The position numbers and the translations under genes are program-made. The notes below the pieces were generated by a model. The model did no database searches, was not told where the DNA came from, and saw only the letters and a list, made by a program, of their open reading frames with translations. Below are positions 6,660-40,808 of a stretch of 64,000 nucleotides of DNA, piece after piece. The stretch is from Streptomyces sp. NBC_00457 (GTDB lineage Bacteria; Actinomycetota; Actinomycetes; Streptomycetales; Streptomycetaceae): the NCBI RefSeq assembly GCF_036014015.1, contig NZ_CP107905.1, forward strand, positions 7,316,001 to 7,380,000, in the 5' to 3' direction. Each line of letters starts with the position of its first letter. Position 1 is the first letter of the stretch.

Positions 6660-8288
6660 GTGGGTGGGTTGCGGGAGGTGGCGGCGCCGTTCGTGGTGCC
6701 CGGTCCCTCAGGGGTCGCGGTCCGTACCCGGTTCAAGCACCTGAGCGCCGAGGACGAGAAGGTTCTTCGGCTGGTCGGTGATCTGCTCGGCACGCTCGCC
6801 TCCCGCGACCTCAAAGCGCGGTGTGCGGCCGGGACGGATCACGACGCCGAGCGATGGGCCGAGCGCAAGCGCACCCTCACCAAGCAGTCCTCCTCCCGCT
6901 GGGCCGGGGCGATCACGAAGGCCACCCACGATCAGTGGGCGCTCGCCCGCCGCGGCCAGCTCGCACACATCCACAGCCTTCAAGCCGGGATCGAGACGAT
7001 CACCCACCGGCTGTCGAGGCCCATCGGTGAGAAGGGCAGCAAGCGCGCTCCGGGCGGGTACCGCAGTCGGCAGGAGTGGTTCGCCAAGTCCCGCCGCCTG
7101 CACGTACTCGAAGACCGGCTCGACGCGGCGCGGGCCGACCGCGAGGCCGGAATCGTGCGCGTGGTGCGGGGCGGCAAGCGGCTGCTGAACACCCGGCACC
7201 ACCTTCAGGAAGCCCAGCTCACCGAGGCCGGATGGCGTGCCCGGTGGGAGGCGGGGCGGCGGTTCCTGCAGGCGGACGGCGAGTCCGGCAAGCGGTACGG
7301 CAACGAGACCATCCGCGTCACGCCCGACGGCGAGGTCTCCCTCAAGCTCCCGGCGCCGCTGGCGCACCTGGCGAACGCGCCGCACGGCCGCTACGCGCTC
7401 ACCGCCCGGGTGAGCTTCGCGCACCGGGGCGAGCAGTGGGCCGACCGGGTCGCCGCCAACCGGGCCGTCGCCTACCGCATCCACGAAGACACCGTGCGGG
7501 GCCGCTGGTACCTGACCGCGTCATGGACGAACCGGCCCGTGGCCCTCGTGCCGCTGGAGGCGGCCCGCGCGCACGGCCTGGTCGGCGTGGACACCAACGC
7601 CGACCACCTCGCCGCCTGGCGCCTGGACCACCACGGCAACCCCACCGGCGAACCGCTCCGGTTCGGCTACGACCTGTCCGGTACCGCCGGCCACCGCGAC
7701 GCGCAAGTCCGCCACGCACTGATCCGCCTACTGCACTGGGCCAAACGACGTGGTCTGTCCATCGCGGTCGAGGACCTCGACTTCACCGCGGAGAAGACCC
7801 GCGAGAAGCACGGCGGCCGCAAGCGGTTCCGCAAGCTCATCTCCGGCATGCCGGTCAGCAGGCTGCGGGCCCGGCTGGTGTCGATGGCTGCCGAACTCGG
7901 CGTCACCATCGTCGCCGTGGACCCGGCCTACACCTCTCGCTGGGGCGCCCAACACTGGCAAAAGCCCCTCACCAGCAAGACCCGTAAGACGACCCGCCAC
8001 GGCGCAGCGGCCGTGGCGATCGGAAGGCGCGCCCTGGGGCACCCGATCCGGCGACGGACGGCACCGCCCCCTGCTCACCGGAGTGATGAGCAGGGGCATC
8101 GGACCGTCCAGGCCCGACCGGGCACCCCGGGGCGTGAGGGAAACCGCCCCCGCATCCCCGGACCACGGACACGATCCGTGCGCGCCGGACGTGGAGCGAA
8201 CGCGGTCGACCAGAACGCCCAACACCGTACGGGGCGTTCGGCTGAGCATGAGTCCTGGCAACAGGACTCACTCCCGCTCAGTCTTTAG
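6660..8288 (+). CDS. TnpB-like RNA-guided nuclease family protein
   Basis: 542 residues. The C-terminal half has a RuvC-type core. Motif I is GLVGVDTNADHLAAW (Asp311) and motif II is LSIAVEDLDF (Glu371). The motif III region is KTTRHGAAAVAIGRRALG, where a Gly (448) stands where the family usually has Asp. The region before motif III (DPAYTSRWGAQHW) lacks the CxxC zinc ribbon of classic TnpB. The N-terminal half is basic and helical, as expected for RNA binding. TnpB proteins cut DNA guided by an RNA made from the 3-prime end of their own gene. GTG at 6660 is used, but GTG at 6678 or 6693 is possible. It may be catalytically weak or domesticated. Confidence 0.85.
   Translation: MGGLREVAAPFVVPGPSGVAVRTRFKHLSAEDEKVLRLVGDLLGTLASRDLKARCAAGTDHDAERWAERKRTLTKQSSSRWAGAITKATHDQWALARRGQLAHIHSLQAGIETITHRLSRPIGEKGSKRAPGGYRSRQEWFAKSRRLHVLEDRLDAARADREAGIVRVVRGGKRLLNTRHHLQEAQLTEAGWRARWEAGRRFLQADGESGKRYGNETIRVTPDGEVSLKLPAPLAHLANAPHGRYALTARVSFAHRGEQWADRVAANRAVAYRIHEDTVRGRWYLTASWTNRPVALVPLEAARAHGLVGVDTNADHLAAWRLDHHGNPTGEPLRFGYDLSGTAGHRDAQVRHALIRLLHWAKRRGLSIAVEDLDFTAEKTREKHGGRKRFRKLISGMPVSRLRARLVSMAAELGVTIVAVDPAYTSRWGAQHWQKPLTSKTRKTTRHGAAAVAIGRRALGHPIRRRTAPPPAHRSDEQGHRTVQARPGTPGREGNRPRIPGPRTRSVRAGRGANAVDQNAQHRTGRSAEHESWQQDSLPLSL
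8242..8281 (+). ncRNA. Stem-loop at 3-prime end of TnpB gene (possible omega-RNA part)
   Basis: Nested hairpin: CTGAGC pairs with GCTCAG, and inside it GAGTCCTG pairs with CAGGACTC across a GCAA tetraloop (GNRA class). It overlaps the last codons of the TnpB gene, where omega-RNA scaffolds are known to lie. The structure is visible; its role as guide RNA is inferred. Confidence 0.4.
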
Positions 8289-8383: not shown

Positions 8384-9544
8384 CTACAAGCGGAAGGGTC
8401 CCGTCACCTCGTATGTGATCCCACCGGACGAACTCCCGCTCGTCCCCCGCTGGCTGGAGAAGTACAGCCGGGTTCCGTCGGGGGAGAAGGCCGGGCCGGT
8501 GATCTCCGAGCCGGACTGGCCGTCGATGCGCAGGAACGGTGCGATGACGTCGTCCGGGGTGATGACGCAGATGTCCATGGAGCCGCCGTCCTCGGCGACG
8601 AAGAGGTCGCCGGAGGAGGAGCCGGTGATGTTGTCGACGCCGGTGAGGGGGGCCGTGCCCGAGGTCACCAGGGAGTCGTCGTACGCCAACTCGTAGGTGT
8701 TGTTGGTGAGGTTGAGCTGCCAGACGCGGTTGTCGCCCTTGGTGGTGAACCAGACCGTGTCGTCGGCGTAGTGGCAGCCCTCGCCGCCGTTGAAGGACTT
8801 CGAGCCGGAGACCTGCGTGCGGGTGGACGTCGGGGAGCCGTCCGGGTCCGGCACGTTCGCCCAGCTGAAGGAGCCGGACGTACCCGACCCGGCGACCATG
8901 ACCTGGAGGGTGCCGGAGGAGAGGTTGCCCCAAGTGGTCGGTACGAAGCGGTAGAAGCGGCCGTTCGACTCGTCCTCGGTCAGGTAGATGACCTTGCGCA
9001 CGGGGTCGGCGGCGGCGGCCTCGTGCTTGAAGCGGCCCATGGCGTCGCGGCGCACGGCGGCGTTCACGCCCCACGGGTCCGTCTCGTAGACGTAGCCGAG
9101 GGACACCTCCTCGCAGGACAGCCAGGTGTTCCACGGGGTCTTGCCGCCCGCGCAGTTCTGGCGGGTGCCGGACAGGATGCGGTACGCGCCCGTGATCGCG
9201 CCGGTCGACGAGAACTTCACCGCGCTCGCGCCGCCGGACGGGTTGATCTCCGAGTTGGAGACGTAGATCCAGCCGCTGCCGTCGGTGTAACAGGCGCCGC
9301 CGTCCGGGGCGTTGTGCCAGGTGTACGACGTGCCGGGGACCGTCTGGCCGGAGCGGGCTATCACTCGGCTGGTGAAGCCGCTGGGGAGTCTGATGCCGTT
9401 GGCGTTCGGCGAGCCGAGCGCTCCGTACGGGCCGGTGCCGGGCTGCGCGGGTGCGGCGTACGCGGCGCCGCGCCACAGGGTTCCGCCGAAGACGGCGGAG
9501 GACCCGCCGAGGACGGCCGCACGCAGGACAGTACGACGTTCCAC
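8384..9544 (-). CDS. PhoX/DUF839-like secreted protein, Tat-exported
   Basis: 386 residues with a twin-arginine signal (MERRTVLRAAVLGGSSAVFG..AYA). The mature part is a beta-propeller-like protein with repeated units such as GGACYTDGSGWIYVSNSE, then WNTWLSCEEV, then GEGCHYADDTVWFTTKGDNRVW, and finally TGPAFSPDGTRLYFSSQRGT. TWLSCEE is the hallmark of PhoX-type (DUF839) proteins, a family that includes calcium-dependent phosphatases. Whether this one is a phosphatase is not shown. The GTG start at 9544 has GGAG upstream. It lies downstream of the kinase/regulator pair on the same strand, but a hairpin separates them. Confidence 0.82.
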   Translation of the reverse strand: MERRTVLRAAVLGGSSAVFGGTLWRGAAYAAPAQPGTGPYGALGSPNANGIRLPSGFTSRVIARSGQTVPGTSYTWHNAPDGGACYTDGSGWIYVSNSEINPSGGASAVKFSSTGAITGAYRILSGTRQNCAGGKTPWNTWLSCEEVSLGYVYETDPWGVNAAVRRDAMGRFKHEAAAADPVRKVIYLTEDESNGRFYRFVPTTWGNLSSGTLQVMVAGSGTSGSFSWANVPDPDGSPTSTRTQVSGSKSFNGGEGCHYADDTVWFTTKGDNRVWQLNLTNNTYELAYDDSLVTSGTAPLTGVDNITGSSSGDLFVAEDGGSMDICVITPDDVIAPFLRIDGQSGSEITGPAFSPDGTRLYFSSQRGTSGSSSGGITYEVTGPFRL

Positions 9545-9563
9545 TCTCGCTCCAAGGGTGGCA

Positions 9564-9604
9564 TGACCGCCCCGTCACCGATCGGCGACGGGGTCGTGCG
9601 GTCA
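9564..9604. terminator. Nested hairpin after the two-component operon
   Basis: TGACCGC pairs with GCGGTCA, enclosing CCCGTC paired with GACGGG. It lies between the kinase stop (9751) and the PhoX-like start (9544), both on the minus strand. It should end the two-component transcript, and it also sits at the promoter of the PhoX-like gene. Confidence 0.55.
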
Positions 9605-9750
9605 CGGAACCTATGGGCGCGGGTTACCGCCCTCGGGGACCCTGGGTTGACGTGTCATGGACAGGTTGTGACGGGGCTGTGCGACGGCTGTGGCGGGCTT
9701 GGGTGCCGTTGCGGTCAGGCAGATCGGACCGCTCAGGTCAATCCGGCCAC

Positions 9751-11226
9751 TCATGCCGGAAGCGCCGGTGCCTCGCGGCGGCGTGGTGGGCCCGGTCTGG
9801 TGATGGGGTGGCCGCCGGCGGACGGGTCCGCGGAGGGCAGGCGGACCACCGCGTCGAGCCCTCCCGTCGCCGCGGCCTGCAGCCTCGCCTCGCCGCCGCT
9901 CGCGTGCGCGAGCCGTTGGACCAGCGAGAGCCCCAGGCCCGTACCGCCCTTCGGGGCGCCGGGCGCGCGCCAGAACCGGTCGAAGGCGCGGTGGCGCTGG
10001 TCCGCGGTCATGCCGGGGCCCTCGTCGGTGACGTGCAGGTCGACCCAGCAGGGGCGGCTGTCGCGCAGCGCCCGGCGGGCGGGGACGAGGAGCCGTAGCT
10101 CGATGGTCACCGTGCTGTCGGACGGGGAGGCCCGCAGGGCGTTGGACAGCAGGTTGTCCAGGATCTGCTCGACGGCCCCGGGCAGCGCGAGCACCGGGCC
10201 CACGCTGCCGGCGAACAGGACCAGCGCGACCCCCTGCTGCTCGAACAGCGCCCCCCAGGTCCGGTGCCGTTCCGCGCAGACCGCGCCCACGTCGACCGGC
10301 CCGGGAGTGACCGCGTCCTCCTCCAGCCGGGCCATCGCCAGCAGGCCCTCGACCATCCGGGACAGCCGGTCCGTCTCGGTGACGGCGGCGGCGAGGCTGC
10401 CCCGGCCGCGCGCGGAGACGTTCGGCTCCAGGTTCTCCAGCCGCAGCCGCAGTGCCGCGAGCGGCGTCTTGAGCTGGTGCGAGGCCTCGCCCGCGAAGGC
10501 ATGCTGGGAGTCGAGGAGATGGGCGAGCCGGGCCGCCGTACGGTTGAACGCGGCGGCCAGCCTGCGTACTTCGGGCGGGCCCTTGGTGATCGTCACCGGC
10601 TCGGCGCAGCCGCCGTCCGCCAACGCATGCGTGGCCCGCTCCAGTTCACGGATGGGGCGGCCGGTCCAGCGGGCGATGCCGAAGCCGACCAGGGTGACCG
10701 CGGCGAGAACCCCGAGCCCGCCGAGAGCGAGCAGCAGCCACACATCGTGGACGCGTTCATGCACGGTCCGCGTGGGCACCGTGAGCCATACGGCACCCCG
10801 CGCCCCCTCCCCGACGGGCGCGGCGACGGAGAGGTATTCCACCCCGCCGATGGTCGACGTACGGACATCCACCGTGGACGTGCCCCGGAGCGCCGCCGCG
10901 ATCCCCGGGCGGGTCGGCAGTGCGCGCACCGCCTGCCCGGTCAGCGGATGCGAGGTGGCGAGCAGGGTGCCCGAGGCGTCCACGATCACCACCTTCCCGC
11001 CGATGCGCGCGGCGCAGTGCGCCGCCCGGCCGGGCAGGTCCCGCTCGGCCCGGCCGGCCGCCAGGGACAGCGCGGCGTACGCGGACACCGACTCGGCCTC
11101 GTCCCTCGCCAGGCCCACCACCCGTTCCCGCTCGCCCCGCGAGTAGACGAAGCCCAGCGGGACCTCCAGGCAGAGCAGCACCAGGGCGGCCAGGCTGAGA
11201 TAGCTGAACAGCAGCCGACGTGTCAT
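9751..11226 (-). CDS. Sensor histidine kinase
   Basis: 491-residue membrane kinase. TM1 spans about residues 5-28, an extracytoplasmic sensor loop about 30-160, and TM2 about 163-185. A HAMP linker follows (GRPIRELERATHAL). The H-box is ASHQLKTPLAAL with phosphoacceptor His250, and the N-box is ILDNLLSNALRASP. The ATP lid regions include DEGPGM and GGTGLGLSLV. The start ATG at 11226 overlaps the regulator stop by four bases (ATGA), so the two are translationally coupled. The loop has a conserved-looking Cys at 71, but the signal is unknown. It adjoins a carbonic anhydrase/SulP pair on the opposite strand. Confidence 0.92.
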   Translation of the reverse strand: MTRRLLFSYLSLAALVLLCLEVPLGFVYSRGERERVVGLARDEAESVSAYAALSLAAGRAERDLPGRAAHCAARIGGKVVIVDASGTLLATSHPLTGQAVRALPTRPGIAAALRGTSTVDVRTSTIGGVEYLSVAAPVGEGARGAVWLTVPTRTVHERVHDVWLLLALGGLGVLAAVTLVGFGIARWTGRPIRELERATHALADGGCAEPVTITKGPPEVRRLAAAFNRTAARLAHLLDSQHAFAGEASHQLKTPLAALRLRLENLEPNVSARGRGSLAAAVTETDRLSRMVEGLLAMARLEEDAVTPGPVDVGAVCAERHRTWGALFEQQGVALVLFAGSVGPVLALPGAVEQILDNLLSNALRASPSDSTVTIELRLLVPARRALRDSRPCWVDLHVTDEGPGMTADQRHRAFDRFWRAPGAPKGGTGLGLSLVQRLAHASGGEARLQAAATGGLDAVVRLPSADPSAGGHPITRPGPPRRREAPALPA

Positions 11227-11921
11227 GTCGGCTCGTTCGGCCCGGTCTGCACCGCCAGCCGGAAGCCGATCCCGCGCAGGGTCTGGATCCACGCCGGATG
11301 GCCCAACTTCCGCCGCAGCGCTGCGACATGGACGTCCAGGGTCTTGGTCGGGCCCTCGTAGTGCGGGTCCCACACCCGGTCGAGGATCTGCTGCCGGGAG
11401 TAGACCGCCCCCGGGTCCTCGGTGAGCAGCGCCAGCAGCTCGAACTCCTTGGGAGTCAGGGGGATCTGCACCTCACCGACCCAGACCTGGCGGGTACGGC
11501 GGTCCACCACGAGCGGTCCGGGCTCGTACGCCGGTTCCGGCGCGGGCTCCACGGGCTCCTGCGTGCGCTGCGTCCGCCGGGTCACCGCCCGCACCCGCGC
11601 CACCAACTCCCGTACGCTGAACGGCTTCGCGAGATAGTCGTCGGCACCCAGCTCCAGGCCCAGCACGCGGTCGGCCTCCTCGCCGCGCGCGCTGAGGATG
11701 ACGATGGGGACGTCGGAGGTCTGCCGGATGCCCCGGCAGACGTCGATGCCGTCCATGTCCGGCAGCCCCAGATCGAGCAGGACCACATCGCCGTACGGAC
11801 CTCTCAGACCCTCGGTGCCGGTGGCGACGCGATCGACCGTCAGCCCGAAGTGCCCGAGCCCCTCGGCGAGCGGCTCGGCGATCGTCTCGTCGTCCTCGAT
11901 GAGCAACACGCGTAGGCCCAT
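11223..11921 (-). CDS. OmpR/PhoB-type response regulator
   Basis: 232 residues. The receiver domain has the acidic pair at 10-11, phosphoacceptor Asp50 (VVLLDLGLPDMDG), and Lys99 in YLAKPFS. The C-terminal winged helix has LTPKEFELLALL, then TKTLDVHVAALRRKLG, then IQTLRGIGFRL. It is the first gene of the operon and coupled to the kinase by ATGA. A tandem 21-bp repeat lies 28-70 bases upstream of its ATG, in the divergent promoter region shared with the carbonic anhydrase. Autoregulation through that repeat is likely (inference). Confidence 0.94.
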   Translation of the reverse strand: MGLRVLLIEDDETIAEPLAEGLGHFGLTVDRVATGTEGLRGPYGDVVLLDLGLPDMDGIDVCRGIRQTSDVPIVILSARGEEADRVLGLELGADDYLAKPFSVRELVARVRAVTRRTQRTQEPVEPAPEPAYEPGPLVVDRRTRQVWVGEVQIPLTPKEFELLALLTEDPGAVYSRQQILDRVWDPHYEGPTKTLDVHVAALRRKLGHPAWIQTLRGIGFRLAVQTGPNEPT

Positions 11922-12227
11922 AGGTCCCGTCTCTCCGTGAATCCGGACAACAACACGACAATGCGTATCAACAACACGACAATGTGTATGACGTGTCGTG
12001 GAGTTGACACGTTACGAGGGATGCCAACCGTGCGTCGAGCGAATGCGGCACAGTGTGACCAGCCGCTCAGAAAGCGTTTGTCCGCTGCTATTTCCGCGTG
12101 TGTGACCGGCCCCGGGACAAAGAATGTCCGGCTGCTGGCCGCGCTCTGGTGTTGGCTTAACCTTCCTCTGGCCATCGCCCCTCTACGGTGTCGTGCACTG
12201 ACCGAACTCCCAGTCGAGGAGGCACCG
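11922..12227. promoter_or_regulatory. Divergent intergenic region, regulator / carbonic anhydrase
   Basis: 306 bases between divergent genes. The regulator-proximal part is AT-richer and holds the 21-bp tandem repeat. An open frame from 11937 runs through into the carbonic anhydrase, but its N-terminal part is not conserved-looking and it lacks a ribosome site, so it is read as leader. No clear -10/-35 pair could be fixed. Confidence 0.5.
11950..11991. repeat. Two tandem 21-bp direct repeats, candidate regulator operator
   Basis: Copy 1 is 11950-11970 and copy 2 is 11971-11991; both begin ACAACACGACAATG and differ at only two positions. 21 bp is two helical turns, the spacing expected for tandem OmpR-type dimers. 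A partial inverted copy (TGTCGTG at 11994-12000) follows. Confidence 0.65.
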
Positions 12228-36889: not shown

Positions 36890-37242
36890 GCTTCGTCCTT
36901 GTTACGGGTCGGGTCGGCTCTTTGTTACACGGCCGGGACGGCGACCTCCCCGCCGCCGCCGGACCGACGTGAGGCGCACGGCAGCCCGCCTCTGAGACGC
37001 CGCCGGGCGGTGCGCAAGGTGCCCTTGGTGTGAAAGGCGCCACATGTGGCTCGTTCCGTACTGTAGTTGGCCGGTCGCAGGTTGTTGAGTGTTGGAGTAA
37101 AGGCCCCTACAGTCGGGCCTTCGCGCGACTCCGCACGGCGTTCGACATACCGGGCATGCCCGCCGCTCATCCCGGATCCGGCAAGGCAGTAACCGCCATC
37201 GAAACAGCCCGTCAAGCGAAACAGCCAGGAGGTCTCCGAGTC
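36890..37242. promoter_or_regulatory. Divergent region nasA / adenylation operon
   Basis: 353 bases without a supported gene. It contains two TGTTAC direct repeats 23 bases apart (36900-36905 and 36923-36928), a weak candidate for GlnR control of nasA. It also has a perfect palindrome GCCACATGTGGC (37039-37050) and a hairpin AAGGCCC/GGGCCTT (37100-37121) in the leader of the plus-strand operon. The adenylation frame is open upstream to 37030 but the extra part is not domain-like. Confidence 0.5.
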
Positions 37243-38757
37243 ATGCCCCTGCGCCATTTGACCCCTCGTGACCAGCACCTTTTCCGGCAATACGGTCGTG
37301 GTCCCACAGTTCCCGTCCCGGACCCCCTCGTCCACCGCGCCGTCGAACGGCATGCCGCGGCCACCCCGCACGCCGTCGCCGCCGAACATCAGGGCGCGCT
37401 GATCACCTACGGCGAGCTGGACCGCCAGGCCGACGCGCTCGCCGCCCGCCTGGCCCGCGAGGGCGTACGGCCCGGCGACCGCGTCGGCCTCTTCGTACGC
37501 CGCTCCCTCCCGATGCTCGTCGGCCTGCTCGGCATCCTGAAGGCGGGCGCCGCCTACGTCCCCCAGGACATCGCTCTCGCGCCCCCCGCCCAGCTCGCCC
37601 ACGTCGTCCGCACCGCCAGCACCCGCGTCGTCCTCACCGTCGCGGAACACGCGGCCCGCATTCCGCGGGGCCCGCGCGTGATCGCCCTGGACACACCCCT
37701 GCCCCCTGCGGCCTTCCCCCGCCCGCACACCAGCCCCGACGACGGCTGCTACGTCCTGTTCACCTCCGGTACCACCGGCCGCCCCAACGGCGTGAAGGTC
37801 ACCCACCGCAACGTCGCCAACATCCTCCTCACCGCCCCCGGCGACCTGGGCATCCGCCCCGGCGACCGGGTAGCCCAACTCCTCAACATCGCCTTCGACA
37901 TGGCCGCCTGGGAGATCCTCGGCTGCCTCGCCCACGGCGGCACCCTCGTGATCCGCGGCAAGGACATCGCGGCGGCGGCCCGTACGGCCGACGTCCTGAT
38001 CGCCACGCCGACCGTCCTGTCCGGCATCGACCCGGCAGCCTGCCCTCGCGTCCGCACGGTCGCGGTGGCGGGCGAACCCTGCCCGCGTCCGCTCGCCGAC
38101 GCCTGGGCCGCCCGCGCCGCCTTCCACAACTGCTGCGGCCCCACCGAGACGACCATCGTCAACACGATGCGCCGCCACGACCCGGCCGACCCACTCCTCA
38201 CCATCGGCCGGCCCACCCCCAACAACACGGTCTACGTCCTCGACGCCGCCCGCCGTCCGCTGCCCATCGGCGAGATCGGCGAGATGTGGGCGGGCGGTGA
38301 CTGCGTCTCAGCGGGATACCTCGGCGACGACCGGCTCAACGCCGAGAGATACGCCCCCGACCCCTTCCTCGGCGGTGGTCGCCGTATGTTCCGCACCCGC
38401 GACCTCGGCCGCTGGACCTCGGACGGCGAACTGGAACACCTCGGCCGCACCGACGACCAGGTCAAGGTGCGCGGCTTCCGCGTCGAGCTCGACTCGGTGT
38501 CCTCGGTGCTGGAGTCGGTGCCGGGCTGCCGGCGCGCGGTGACCCTGAAGCGGGACGCCCGCACGCTGGTCTCCTTCGTCTGCCCCGCCGACGTCGACCC
38601 GGGCACCGCCCGCGGCGCTGTCGCCGACGCCCTGCCGTACTACTGCGTGCCTGACGAGGTCCTGCCCCTGCCCGTCCTCCCCGAGACCGACCGCGGCAAG
38701 ATCGACAAAACGGCGCTGCTGCGGATGGCCGAAGAGCGGATGGCGGTGGCCCGATGA
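37243..38757 (+). CDS. Stand-alone NRPS-type adenylation enzyme
   Basis: 504 residues, a single A domain with no carrier or condensation domain. Core motifs: ITYGELDRQADALAARL (A1), LKAGAAYVPQD (A2), VLFTSGTTGRPNGV (A3, 171-184), NIAFDMAAWEIL (A4, with Asp219 at the amino-acid-binding position), CCGPTETT (A5), GEMWAGGDCVSAGYL (A6), RTRDLGRW (A7), GRTDDQVKVRGFRVEL (A8) and ETDRGKIDK (A10 Lys486). Asp219 suggests an amino-acid or amine-bearing substrate. The ATG has GGAGGT upstream. Its stop overlaps the next ATG (ATGA), so it is coupled to the membrane reductase. Confidence 0.9.
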   Translation: MPLRHLTPRDQHLFRQYGRGPTVPVPDPLVHRAVERHAAATPHAVAAEHQGALITYGELDRQADALAARLAREGVRPGDRVGLFVRRSLPMLVGLLGILKAGAAYVPQDIALAPPAQLAHVVRTASTRVVLTVAEHAARIPRGPRVIALDTPLPPAAFPRPHTSPDDGCYVLFTSGTTGRPNGVKVTHRNVANILLTAPGDLGIRPGDRVAQLLNIAFDMAAWEILGCLAHGGTLVIRGKDIAAAARTADVLIATPTVLSGIDPAACPRVRTVAVAGEPCPRPLADAWAARAAFHNCCGPTETTIVNTMRRHDPADPLLTIGRPTPNNTVYVLDAARRPLPIGEIGEMWAGGDCVSAGYLGDDRLNAERYAPDPFLGGGRRMFRTRDLGRWTSDGELEHLGRTDDQVKVRGFRVELDSVSSVLESVPGCRRAVTLKRDARTLVSFVCPADVDPGTARGAVADALPYYCVPDEVLPLPVLPETDRGKIDKTALLRMAEERMAVAR

Positions 38758-40022
38758 CCACCTCACCTCCGCGGACCCGGCAGGACACCACCGAGCTGCC
38801 CCCGCTTCTGTCGGGCCCTCGCCGCCTGCTCAAGCACCCACGCCTGATGCACTACAACAGGCTCGCGGCCCTGGTGATCCTGGCCAACCTCGTCTTCCTG
38901 TACGCCCGTTGGCCCCTGTCGAGCGAGACTTTCGGCCACGCGGCCCTCGCCAACCTCGCGCTCGCCGTCGTCGTACGACAGCAGTACGTCATCAACCTCT
39001 TCTTCCGGCTGGCGACCTGGGCGCCGACGCACTGGCCACTGAAGATCCGCTGGACGCTGGGGAAGGTGTACCACTTCGGCGGACTGCACGCGGGCGGGGC
39101 GCTGGCGGGGACCGGCTGGTTCCTGGCGCTCACGATCAGCACGACCCAGGGGCCGGCCAGTACGCCGCTCAGGACCGTGAGCTGGACCCTGATCGCCCTC
39201 CTCACGGTCATCGTCGCCGCCGCCCTGCCGCCCTTCCGCTCCCGCCATCACGACCACTTCGAGAAGATCCACCGCTTCGGCGGATGGACGGCCCTGGCCC
39301 TCTTCTGGACGCACACGCTCATGTCCACGCCGGGGCCGATACCCGTCACCGTCCTCACGGTCGTCACCTTCAGCGTCGCCCTGCCCTGGCTACGGCTCCG
39401 CAAGGTCGCCGTCCGTCTCGAACGCCCCTCCCGCCACGTCGTACTGGCCCGCTTCGACCACGGCGAGACCCCCTTCGCGGGCTCCTCGACCGCGATCAGC
39501 CGCAGCCCGCTACGGGAATGGCACTCCTTCGCCAACGTCCCGGCCCCCGGTGAGCCCGGCTTCCGGCTCACCATCTCGCGGGCCGGCGACTGGACGGGCT
39601 CGTTCATCGACGACCTGCCGCCCAAGGTGTGGGTGAAGGGCATCACCACGGCCGGGGTCGCCAACATCGAGGTCCTGTTCAAGAAGGTGATCTACGTCGC
39701 GACCGGCAGCGGCATCGGCCCCTGCCTGCCCCATCTCCTCGCCGCCGAGGTGCCCTCCCGCCTGGTCTGGGCGACCCGCGACCCCCGCACGACCTACGGC
39801 GACGCGCTCGCCGACGAGATCCTCGCCGTCCAGCCCGAGGCCGTCATCTGGGACACCTCCCGGCACGGCAAGCCCGACATGGTGCGCCTCGCGTACGCCG
39901 CGTACCGCGACTTCGGCGCCGAGGCGGTGATCTGCATCTCCAACAAGAAGCTCACCTGGCAGGTCGTACACGGGCTTGAGCGGCGCGGGATTCCGGCGTA
40001 CGGCGCGATCTGGGACTCGTAA
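38754..40022 (+). CDS. Six-helix membrane oxidoreductase (TmpA/TmpL and ferric-reductase-like)
   Basis: 422 residues. About six membrane helices fill residues 36-215. His107/112 (VYHFGGLH) and His173/187 (HRFGGWTALALFWTH) are placed like the haem-ligand pairs of ferric-reductase/NOX proteins. The soluble C-terminal half (220-422) looks like a ferredoxin-reductase module: REWHSFANVP is an FAD-binding-like motif and VIYVATGSGIGPCLPHLL is a nucleotide-binding motif. CISNKKLTWQVVHGLERRGIPAYG closes it. Fungal TmpA/TmpL proteins have this layout, and TmpL also carries an AMP-binding domain, here encoded by the coupled upstream gene. The substrate is unknown. Confidence 0.75.
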   Translation: MTTSPPRTRQDTTELPPLLSGPRRLLKHPRLMHYNRLAALVILANLVFLYARWPLSSETFGHAALANLALAVVVRQQYVINLFFRLATWAPTHWPLKIRWTLGKVYHFGGLHAGGALAGTGWFLALTISTTQGPASTPLRTVSWTLIALLTVIVAAALPPFRSRHHDHFEKIHRFGGWTALALFWTHTLMSTPGPIPVTVLTVVTFSVALPWLRLRKVAVRLERPSRHVVLARFDHGETPFAGSSTAISRSPLREWHSFANVPAPGEPGFRLTISRAGDWTGSFIDDLPPKVWVKGITTAGVANIEVLFKKVIYVATGSGIGPCLPHLLAAEVPSRLVWATRDPRTTYGDALADEILAVQPEAVIWDTSRHGKPDMVRLAYAAYRDFGAEAVICISNKKLTWQVVHGLERRGIPAYGAIWDS

Positions 40023-40040
40023 CCGTCGAAGGGATTCCGC

Positions 40041-40808
40041 ATGAGAAACCTGAAAGTCGAACGGCACGGCCGAGTGGTGACCGTCCGACTGCACCGGCCG
40101 CGCGTGCTCAACGCACTGAACACCGAGCTGCTGACCGAACTCCTCGACACCCTGCGCCCCTTGGACGCGGACCCCGAGGTCGGCTGCTTCGTGGTCACCG
40201 GCTCGGAGAGCGTGTTCGCCGCCGGCGCCGACATCAAGGAGATGGCGGGGAAGTCGGCCGCGGAGATGGCGGCGGAGGACTACTTCGCGGCGTGGGAGGA
40301 GTTCGCCGACCTCCGTACGCCGAAGATCGCCGCCGTCAACGGGCATGCCCTGGGCGGTGGTTGTGAGCTGGCGATGATGTGCGACGTCGTCATCGCGGGC
40401 GAGTCGGCGGTGTTCGGCCAGCCGGAGATCAAGCTCGGGGTGATCCCGGGCATCGGCGGCACCCAGCGGCTGACCCGGCTGGTCGGCAAGGCCACGGCGA
40501 TGGACCTGATCCTCACCGGTCGCACCATGGACGCACGGGAGGCTGGACGCTGCGGTCTCGTCTCCCGCGTCGTTTCCGACGACCAGGTCCTGCCGGAGGC
40601 CCTCGAAGCGGCAGCGGCCATCGCCTCGTACGGCCGCGCGGCGGTCACCGCGGCCCGCGAATGCGTGAACCAGGCCATGGAAACCGGCCTGCGCGACGGC
40701 ATCCGCTTCGAACGCCGGGTGTTCCACGCCCTGTTCGCGACCGTGGACCAGAAGGAGGGCATGAGCGCGTTCCTGGAGAAACGCGCCCCGCACTTCACCG
40801 GGCGCTAG
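40041..40808 (+). CDS. Enoyl-CoA hydratase/isomerase (crotonase)
   Basis: 255 residues. LNALNTELLTELLDTL, then FAAGADIKEMAG (oxyanion-hole loop), then AVNGHALGGGCELAMMCDVVIA and FGQPEIKLGVIPGIGGTQRL. Both catalytic Glu positions of true hydratases are present (GGGCE and GQPEI). The ATG lies 18 bases after the membrane oxidoreductase stop with GAAGGGA upstream, so it is the third gene of the operon. Its last 14 bases overlap the convergent SanA/YdcF gene. Together with the adenylating enzyme it may act on an acyl-CoA or acyl-adenylate (inference). Confidence 0.92.
   Translation: MRNLKVERHGRVVTVRLHRPRVLNALNTELLTELLDTLRPLDADPEVGCFVVTGSESVFAAGADIKEMAGKSAAEMAAEDYFAAWEEFADLRTPKIAAVNGHALGGGCELAMMCDVVIAGESAVFGQPEIKLGVIPGIGGTQRLTRLVGKATAMDLILTGRTMDAREAGRCGLVSRVVSDDQVLPEALEAAAAIASYGRAAVTAARECVNQAMETGLRDGIRFERRVFHALFATVDQKEGMSAFLEKRAPHFTGR

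Follow-up and report, generated by a model that had tools for sequence, protein, structure and literature searches.

An operon of adenylation enzyme, membrane oxidoreductase and crotonase conserved in Streptomyces and related actinomycetes, and its possible kinship in function with fungal TmpL-type proteins

What might a bacterium do with an amino-acid-activating enzyme that lacks a carrier protein, when the gene for that enzyme overlaps one for a membrane redox protein and is followed by one for a crotonase? The question is raised by a three-gene operon in Streptomyces sp. NBC_00457 (contig NZ_CP107905.1), located in a stretch of 64,000 nucleotides (positions 7,316,001 to 7,380,000, hereafter the window) of a 10.8 Mb genome assembled as a single contig. 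Its genes encode a stand-alone adenylation enzyme of the nonribosomal peptide synthetase (NRPS) type (A), a six-helix membrane oxidoreductase (M) and a member of the enoyl-coenzyme A (CoA) hydratase family (C). A, M and C form a conserved three-gene unit. We give a probability of about 0.5 to the reading that the trio is one biochemical unit, a split bacterial counterpart of the fungal TmpB/TmpL/NPS12 proteins and their neighbouring hydratase, which carries out activate-oxidise-hydrate chemistry. This estimate draws on the unit as observed, its protein families, a predicted fold and a histidine pattern, from which we infer every chemical step.

The three genes are tightly packed. A and M overlap in ATGA, which holds the stop codon of the one and the start codon of the other, and C begins 18 bases past the stop of M; a first-pass annotation of the window had described these open reading frames (ORFs), the overlap and the gap, and both the ORF list and direct reading put all of them in the same places. 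We set the start of A at the ATG (37243) behind an AGGAGG, where the ORF list instead begins at an upstream GTG (37030), and residue 1 of the ATG form is also where the alignment starts for most relatives. Relatives of M were collected by a scan of one genome per species, and gene order was counted in the best 80 of 243, which are the closest ones. In this set A lies directly upstream of M in 77 of 80 loci, the remaining three starting at a contig end, and C follows M immediately in 79 of 80. The set runs from a near copy of the window to loci in Microbispora, Streptosporangium and Catenulispora, with 66-72% identity for the three proteins; the closest named match is Streptomyces sp. GESEQ-4 (99% over M). 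Outside the trio, no gene family is common to more than three of 14 loci chosen for diversity (ORFs of at least 120 residues). The junctions are equally regular. When the in-frame M start nearest to a 4-base overlap is chosen, the A stop and M start overlap by 4 bases in 77 of 83 scored loci (87 submitted) and by 1 base in the other six. The gap between M and C has a median of 16.5 bases (84 of 87 loci) and is at most 60 bases in 77 of those, measured from the earliest possible C start, which shortens it. The homologues keep an order beyond chance; a scatter of rarely adjacent homologues, named beforehand as the outcome that would refute the first-pass reading, did not occur.

Of 296 genomes sampled from the phylum, 3 contain M. 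In samples drawn from the class, the family and another order of the class, which are less biased than the best-80 set, M is present in 9 of 394, 14 of 249 and 11 of 249 genomes, respectively. The class, order and family samples contain 26 distinct M-bearing genomes, and A adjoins M in 19 of these. Two are ambiguous: G1005 is cut upstream by a contig end and shows no C in the next 1.8 kb or so downstream; in G954, C is adjacent and the A side lies outside the count. The contigs labelled G309 and L083 (Microbispora), equal in length, are probably one and the same.

The assignment of A is straightforward. It matches TIGR01733 (amino acid adenylation) at 351.9 bits, against a cut-off of 317.4, and PF00501 at 231.9 bits, and its PDB relatives include the adenylation domains of LgrA and GrsA. 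The earlier description of A as an adenylation domain with core motifs and no carrier protein is borne out by these matches, by a domain search that returned no carrier protein domain in A, and by what we take to be motifs A3, A4, A5, A8 and A10, which can be read by eye. Unlike in an NRPS module, the carrier (T) domain is neither in A nor close by: its motif occurs in 0 of 81 regions around the operon, some of them short, by a pattern that detected one in 7 of the 8 NRPS loci used as controls. A does have the Asp that binds the amino group, and the catalytic Lys. Anchored on motifs, the pocket reads D-M-W-I-A-A-C-I-V-K, with positions 278, 299 and 301 tentatively anchored by the specificity code of such domains. 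A pocket survey of 92 rows, 10 of them without a script-readable A (contig ends, solo loci, short or unmatched frames), found D, M, W and I-V (330-331) in all 82 readable copies; the Cys position holds C in 55, S in 14, A in eight and G in five. A hydrophobic or aromatic amino acid is the likely substrate.

M has the six helices and the flavin adenine dinucleotide (FAD)/NAD(P) build that the first-pass annotation had given it. Both are supported by a structure model, in which a NADPH oxidase (NOX) fold is predicted to span residues 29-422; the lack of any structural match to a ferric-reductase fold, named as the outcome that would count against this assignment, did not occur. The choice of haem ligands had to be revised. 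H173 and H187, proposed as a pair, are both present, but the pair was rejected, as only 14 of 35 relatives have H187. The conserved pair is H112 (helix 3) and H173 (helix 5), both in 35 of 35 M proteins, marking one putative inner haem site with the outer pair missing; position 126, the would-be second helix-3 histidine, is His in one of 35. The distance between H112 and H173 is 61 residues, compared with 60 for the SpNOX inner pair H69/H129. When M was compared by profile with three proteins of its own genome that have a ferric-reductase domain, the match had E 8.8e-5 but a probability of only 60%, and it covered residues 148-415; H173 and H187 fall on the two helix-5 histidines of those proteins, and helix 3 is outside the coverage. 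We regard H112 as a putative haem ligand because of the fold match, the spacing and its invariance, the profile match leaving out helix 3. H112, H166 and H173 are invariant even in cyanobacterial relatives at 31-33% identity. His166, at the start of helix 5, is likewise present in 35 of 35 proteins; no residue of the NOX haem scheme corresponds to it. The NAD(P) motif is less strict: among the 35 relatives S319 is kept in 32 and G322 in 27, and cyanobacterial relatives have GAGIAP; M of the window carries GSGIGP and WHSFA.

This haem layout separates M from its better-known relatives. NOX enzymes are defined by four haem-ligand histidines in two His-X12/14-His patterns (PMC5676040). M shares the six-helix and dehydrogenase-domain fold of SpNOX and the eukaryotic NADPH oxidases, as modelled, but lacks the outer haem pair and so falls outside the four-histidine definition. 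Single-haem ferric reductase domain proteins such as YedZ and STEAP are described as keeping the surface-proximal pair (PMC3591440). M belongs by fold to the same superfamily and has one likely haem site, but unlike these proteins it keeps the cytosol-proximal pair and has an FAD/NAD(P) domain of its own. With its inner site kept and its outer site missing, M would fit neither class of that survey, as the classes are described there (PMC3591440).

C has its best PDB match in EchA8 (310 bits). Along the active-site stretch C is similar to EchA8; it has Asp where the mitochondrial-type chain 9qwv has Glu, and this Asp is found in 85 of 85 operon C matches; hydration of a CoA ester is therefore the natural guess. 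A housekeeping hydratase was considered and rejected, as C tracks M across Streptomycetaceae genomes. A crotonase at least 70% identical to C is present in 13 of 248 of these genomes, all 13 of them among the 14 of 249 that carry M. The next-best Streptomycetaceae crotonases reach at most 62%, an EchA8-type enzyme at 52-62% occurs in 80 of the other 235 genomes, and the nearest paralogue of C in its own genome is 46% identical. By these comparisons C is a dedicated operon copy, set apart within the family from its EchA8-type relatives, since the operon copies form a separate group at identities of 70% and above. A side comparison, which scored the best 10 candidates per genome, found a second EchA8-type hydratase at E <= 1e-70 in none of the 13 operon-crotonase genomes as against 80 of 235 others, a difference that shared ancestry may explain.

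Single fungal proteins unite much of what A and M provide between them. TmpL is described as a flavoprotein with an AMP-binding domain, six helices and an FAD/NAD(P) domain containing GSGIGP and RLHFD; its orthologues are, according to its authors, confined to filamentous fungi, and its loss upsets the balance of reactive oxygen species (ROS) (PMC2766074). TmpB is reported to have the same build and to act in a conidiation pathway, and a putative enoyl-CoA hydratase gene lies beside tmpB in Aspergillus nidulans and is conserved in several Aspergilli (PMC4804170). Our operon resembles TmpB, TmpL and ChNPS12 (A. nidulans, Alternaria brassicicola, Aspergillus fumigatus and Cochliobolus heterostrophus) in combining an NRPS-type adenylation domain that has no carrier (T) or condensation (C) domain with a six-helix and FAD/NAD(P) half of the ferric-reductase type. 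It shares GSGIGP with TmpL and, taking the fungal side from print, an enoyl-CoA hydratase-family gene nearby with Aspergillus tmpB. The TmpB pocket is given as D238, W242, C307, G309, I315 and K495, equivalent to D235, W239, A322, G324, I330 and K517 of PheA (PMC4804170); A has the same six letters at the listed positions (D219, W223, C297, G299, I305 and K486), the Cys in 55 of 82 copies. The build differs, A and M being overlapping genes and not one chain; a second possible difference is ARFD (residues 232-235) in M, at what may be the place of RLHFD. The suggestion of a split bacterial TmpL counterpart is partly supported: the three-gene unit, the ferric-reductase/NOX fold of M and the resemblance in domain set, GSGIGP and TmpB pocket letters bear it out, and the hydratase gene beside tmpB goes beyond what was suggested. 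We do not class the operon as TmpL because the one-chain build is absent, and by analogy it probably works like TmpL.

Two other published cases come close by description. The TmpA gene of A. nidulans, which like solo M encodes a membrane oxidoreductase without a fused adenylation domain, adjoins afeA, a gene for an adenylate-forming enzyme; AfeA is described as coumarate-ligase-like and, unlike A, is not of the NRPS type (PMC4804170). In the analysis of Bushley and Turgeon (2010), the stand-alone A domains of the bacteria Hahella and Salinispora fall within the ChNPS12 clade, so that single bacterial domains, like A, group with fungal proteins joining an A domain to a ferric reductase; the part of that paper concerned with them mentions no partner genes beside them (PMC2823734). 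The claim of an undescribed system is narrowed by this precedent and stands for the M partner and the operon: among the open-licence PMC papers listed by searches on TmpL/TmpA/TmpB/NPS12 and on A-domain/crotonase/membrane combinations, none is about such a bacterial operon.

The fungal counterpart is linked to spore formation and virulence, and we know of no established biochemistry for TmpB/TmpL/NPS12 either. In the reading we favour, A would turn a hydrophobic amino acid into an aminoacyl-AMP and, the carrier protein being absent, pass it to CoA. The FAD/NAD(P) half of M would lie in the cytosol, and M would shuttle electrons among NAD(P)H, FAD and a single haem close to the inner side of the membrane. 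The substrate of its redox step, most likely an alpha,beta-desaturation although the direction is unsure, would be the amino acid in activated form or as the CoA ester. C, going by its family, would add water to the double bond. Activation, oxidation and hydration would amount to the first three steps of beta-oxidation performed on an amino acid, and would yield a beta-hydroxy amino acid as building block or signal. This appears the simplest line from amino acid through aminoacyl-AMP, CoA ester and M to hydration by C, because no carrier motif is nearby and a CoA-type crotonase comes third. More speculatively, the fungal and bacterial forms may be one cross-kingdom enzyme system of three parts, which are joined in fungi and separate in filamentous actinomycetes. 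Its NOX-fold member, lacking the outer haem, would have shifted from transmembrane electron transfer to redox reactions at the inner face, with an amino acid in adenylated or CoA-bound form as substrate, and a dedicated crotonase would finish the product. If true, this tentative idea could mean that an amino-acid-derived signal of mycelial growth is made in both kingdoms. With A, M and a dedicated crotonase as separate proteins in an easily grown Streptomyces, substrate and product would be open to direct testing.

Several observations weigh against the favoured reading. NRPS-type A domains normally load a carrier and not CoA, and NOX-fold proteins normally take electrons from NADPH, which sits poorly with a dehydrogenase role. 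The fungal likeness consists of domain set, published motifs and pocket residues, and common descent is at most putative; the spacing from the pocket Asp to position 322 is 78 in A, 69 in TmpB and 87 in PheA, no close match. None of 83 loci has an A-M fusion; a 940-residue open frame around M in G023 was considered as one and rejected, A and M being in different frames. Nor is the trio always complete. In Streptomyces lasiicapitis A and M are retained, but the slot of the absent crotonase is taken by a gene resembling those of flavin-binding monooxygenases (9377-10867 of its locus), and in one of the 19 A-adjacent genomes (G841) the crotonase is only 43% identical. M itself occurs without A and C in five of the 26 M-bearing genomes, and can thus work alone. 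It is also found on plasmids of Pantoea piersonii (two records at 47%, context from one) and of cyanobacteria (three records, 30-33%), with no A or C relative near M in the two plasmid loci searched (L092 and L093). Because of these occurrences we see in M a larger protein family, some members of which stand alone while others are linked to A, a division that recalls TmpA and TmpB in fungi. In a tree of 35 M proteins the cyanobacterial ones are set apart and the 24 operon copies are not one clade; three label changes are needed, at least two of them forced by well-supported branches, so the trio may have arisen once or more than once.

How well do other explanations account for these data? A might feed a carrier protein belonging to an NRPS whose genes lie in another part of the genome, with M and C tailoring the carrier-bound amino acid. 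A is of the NRPS type, the genome has a 7392-residue open frame with several A domains, and loading of carriers in trans has been described for other stand-alone A enzymes (PMC2823734). However, the trio recurs across several families with unshared flanks and no nearby carrier motif, so every host would need its own partner in trans, and C resembles enzymes of CoA esters; we think this account unlikely, if worth keeping in mind. M might also have the fold without binding haem, as a membrane-anchored flavin reductase supplying electrons to another enzyme. Solo M relatives in varied contexts are what one would expect of a general electron donor, but the invariance of all three histidines out to the cyanobacterial relatives makes this improbable.

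An ordinary NADPH oxidase or ferric reductase, producing superoxide or reducing extracellular iron while A and C serve a separate step, seems if anything a shade harder to sustain. The NOX fold and the weak ferric-reductase Pfam match of a cyanobacterial M relative (E 0.0019, below cut-off) agree with it, as does the disturbed ROS balance on TmpL loss (PMC2766074). Cross-membrane electron transfer, however, needs the outer haem pair that M lacks, and tmpB deletion in A. nidulans is reported not to cause sensitivity to oxidative stress (PMC4804170). Least credible of all is that the genes are merely inherited side by side and have loosely connected roles, such as in degrading an unusual amino acid: C does come close to a generic hydratase, yet A and M overlap in all 83 loci examined and the order is strict over several families. 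The reading as one activate-oxidise-hydrate unit is the one we retain.

Table 1. Positions of the operon genes and of selected sites within the window.
Feature	Position	Strand	Description
A	37243-38757	+	stand-alone NRPS-type amino acid adenylation enzyme, 504 aa, without carrier protein domain
M	38754-40022	+	membrane oxidoreductase, 422 aa, NADPH-oxidase/ferric-reductase fold, inner haem histidine pair only (putative)
C	40041-40808	+	EchA8-type crotonase (enoyl-CoA hydratase family), 255 aa
AGGAGG, ribosome-binding-site-like	37227-37232	+	10 bases 5' of the ATG of A; read directly
M His112 codon (helix 3)	39087-39089	+	putative inner-haem ligand; invariant 35/35
M His166 codon	39249-39251	+	third His, helix 5 start; invariant 35/35
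M His173 codon (helix 5)	39270-39272	+	putative inner-haem ligand; invariant 35/35
GSGIGP codons, M residues 318-323	39705-39722	+	NAD(P) motif named for TmpL

On its 5' side the operon is flanked by a molybdopterin oxidoreductase gene on the opposite strand, and on its 3' side by a DUF218 gene convergent with C. The Catenulispora locus L087 has a second AMP-binding enzyme gene (10118-12004) just 3' of the operon crotonase. A search for viral copies of M gave one pattern match and no relative. On the Pantoea piersonii plasmid (L092, 3133-13245), M lies near genes for a hydantoinase/oxoprolinase, an FAD oxidoreductase and an MFS transporter, with aerobactin genes farther on. The cyanobacterial plasmids (L093-L095) have an HlyD-type membrane-fusion gene next after M, identified by Pfam in L093 and by eye in the other two. 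Lastly, one actinobacterial genome (L127) carries two divergent solo M genes (6775-8073 and 10321-11445) about 2 kb apart.

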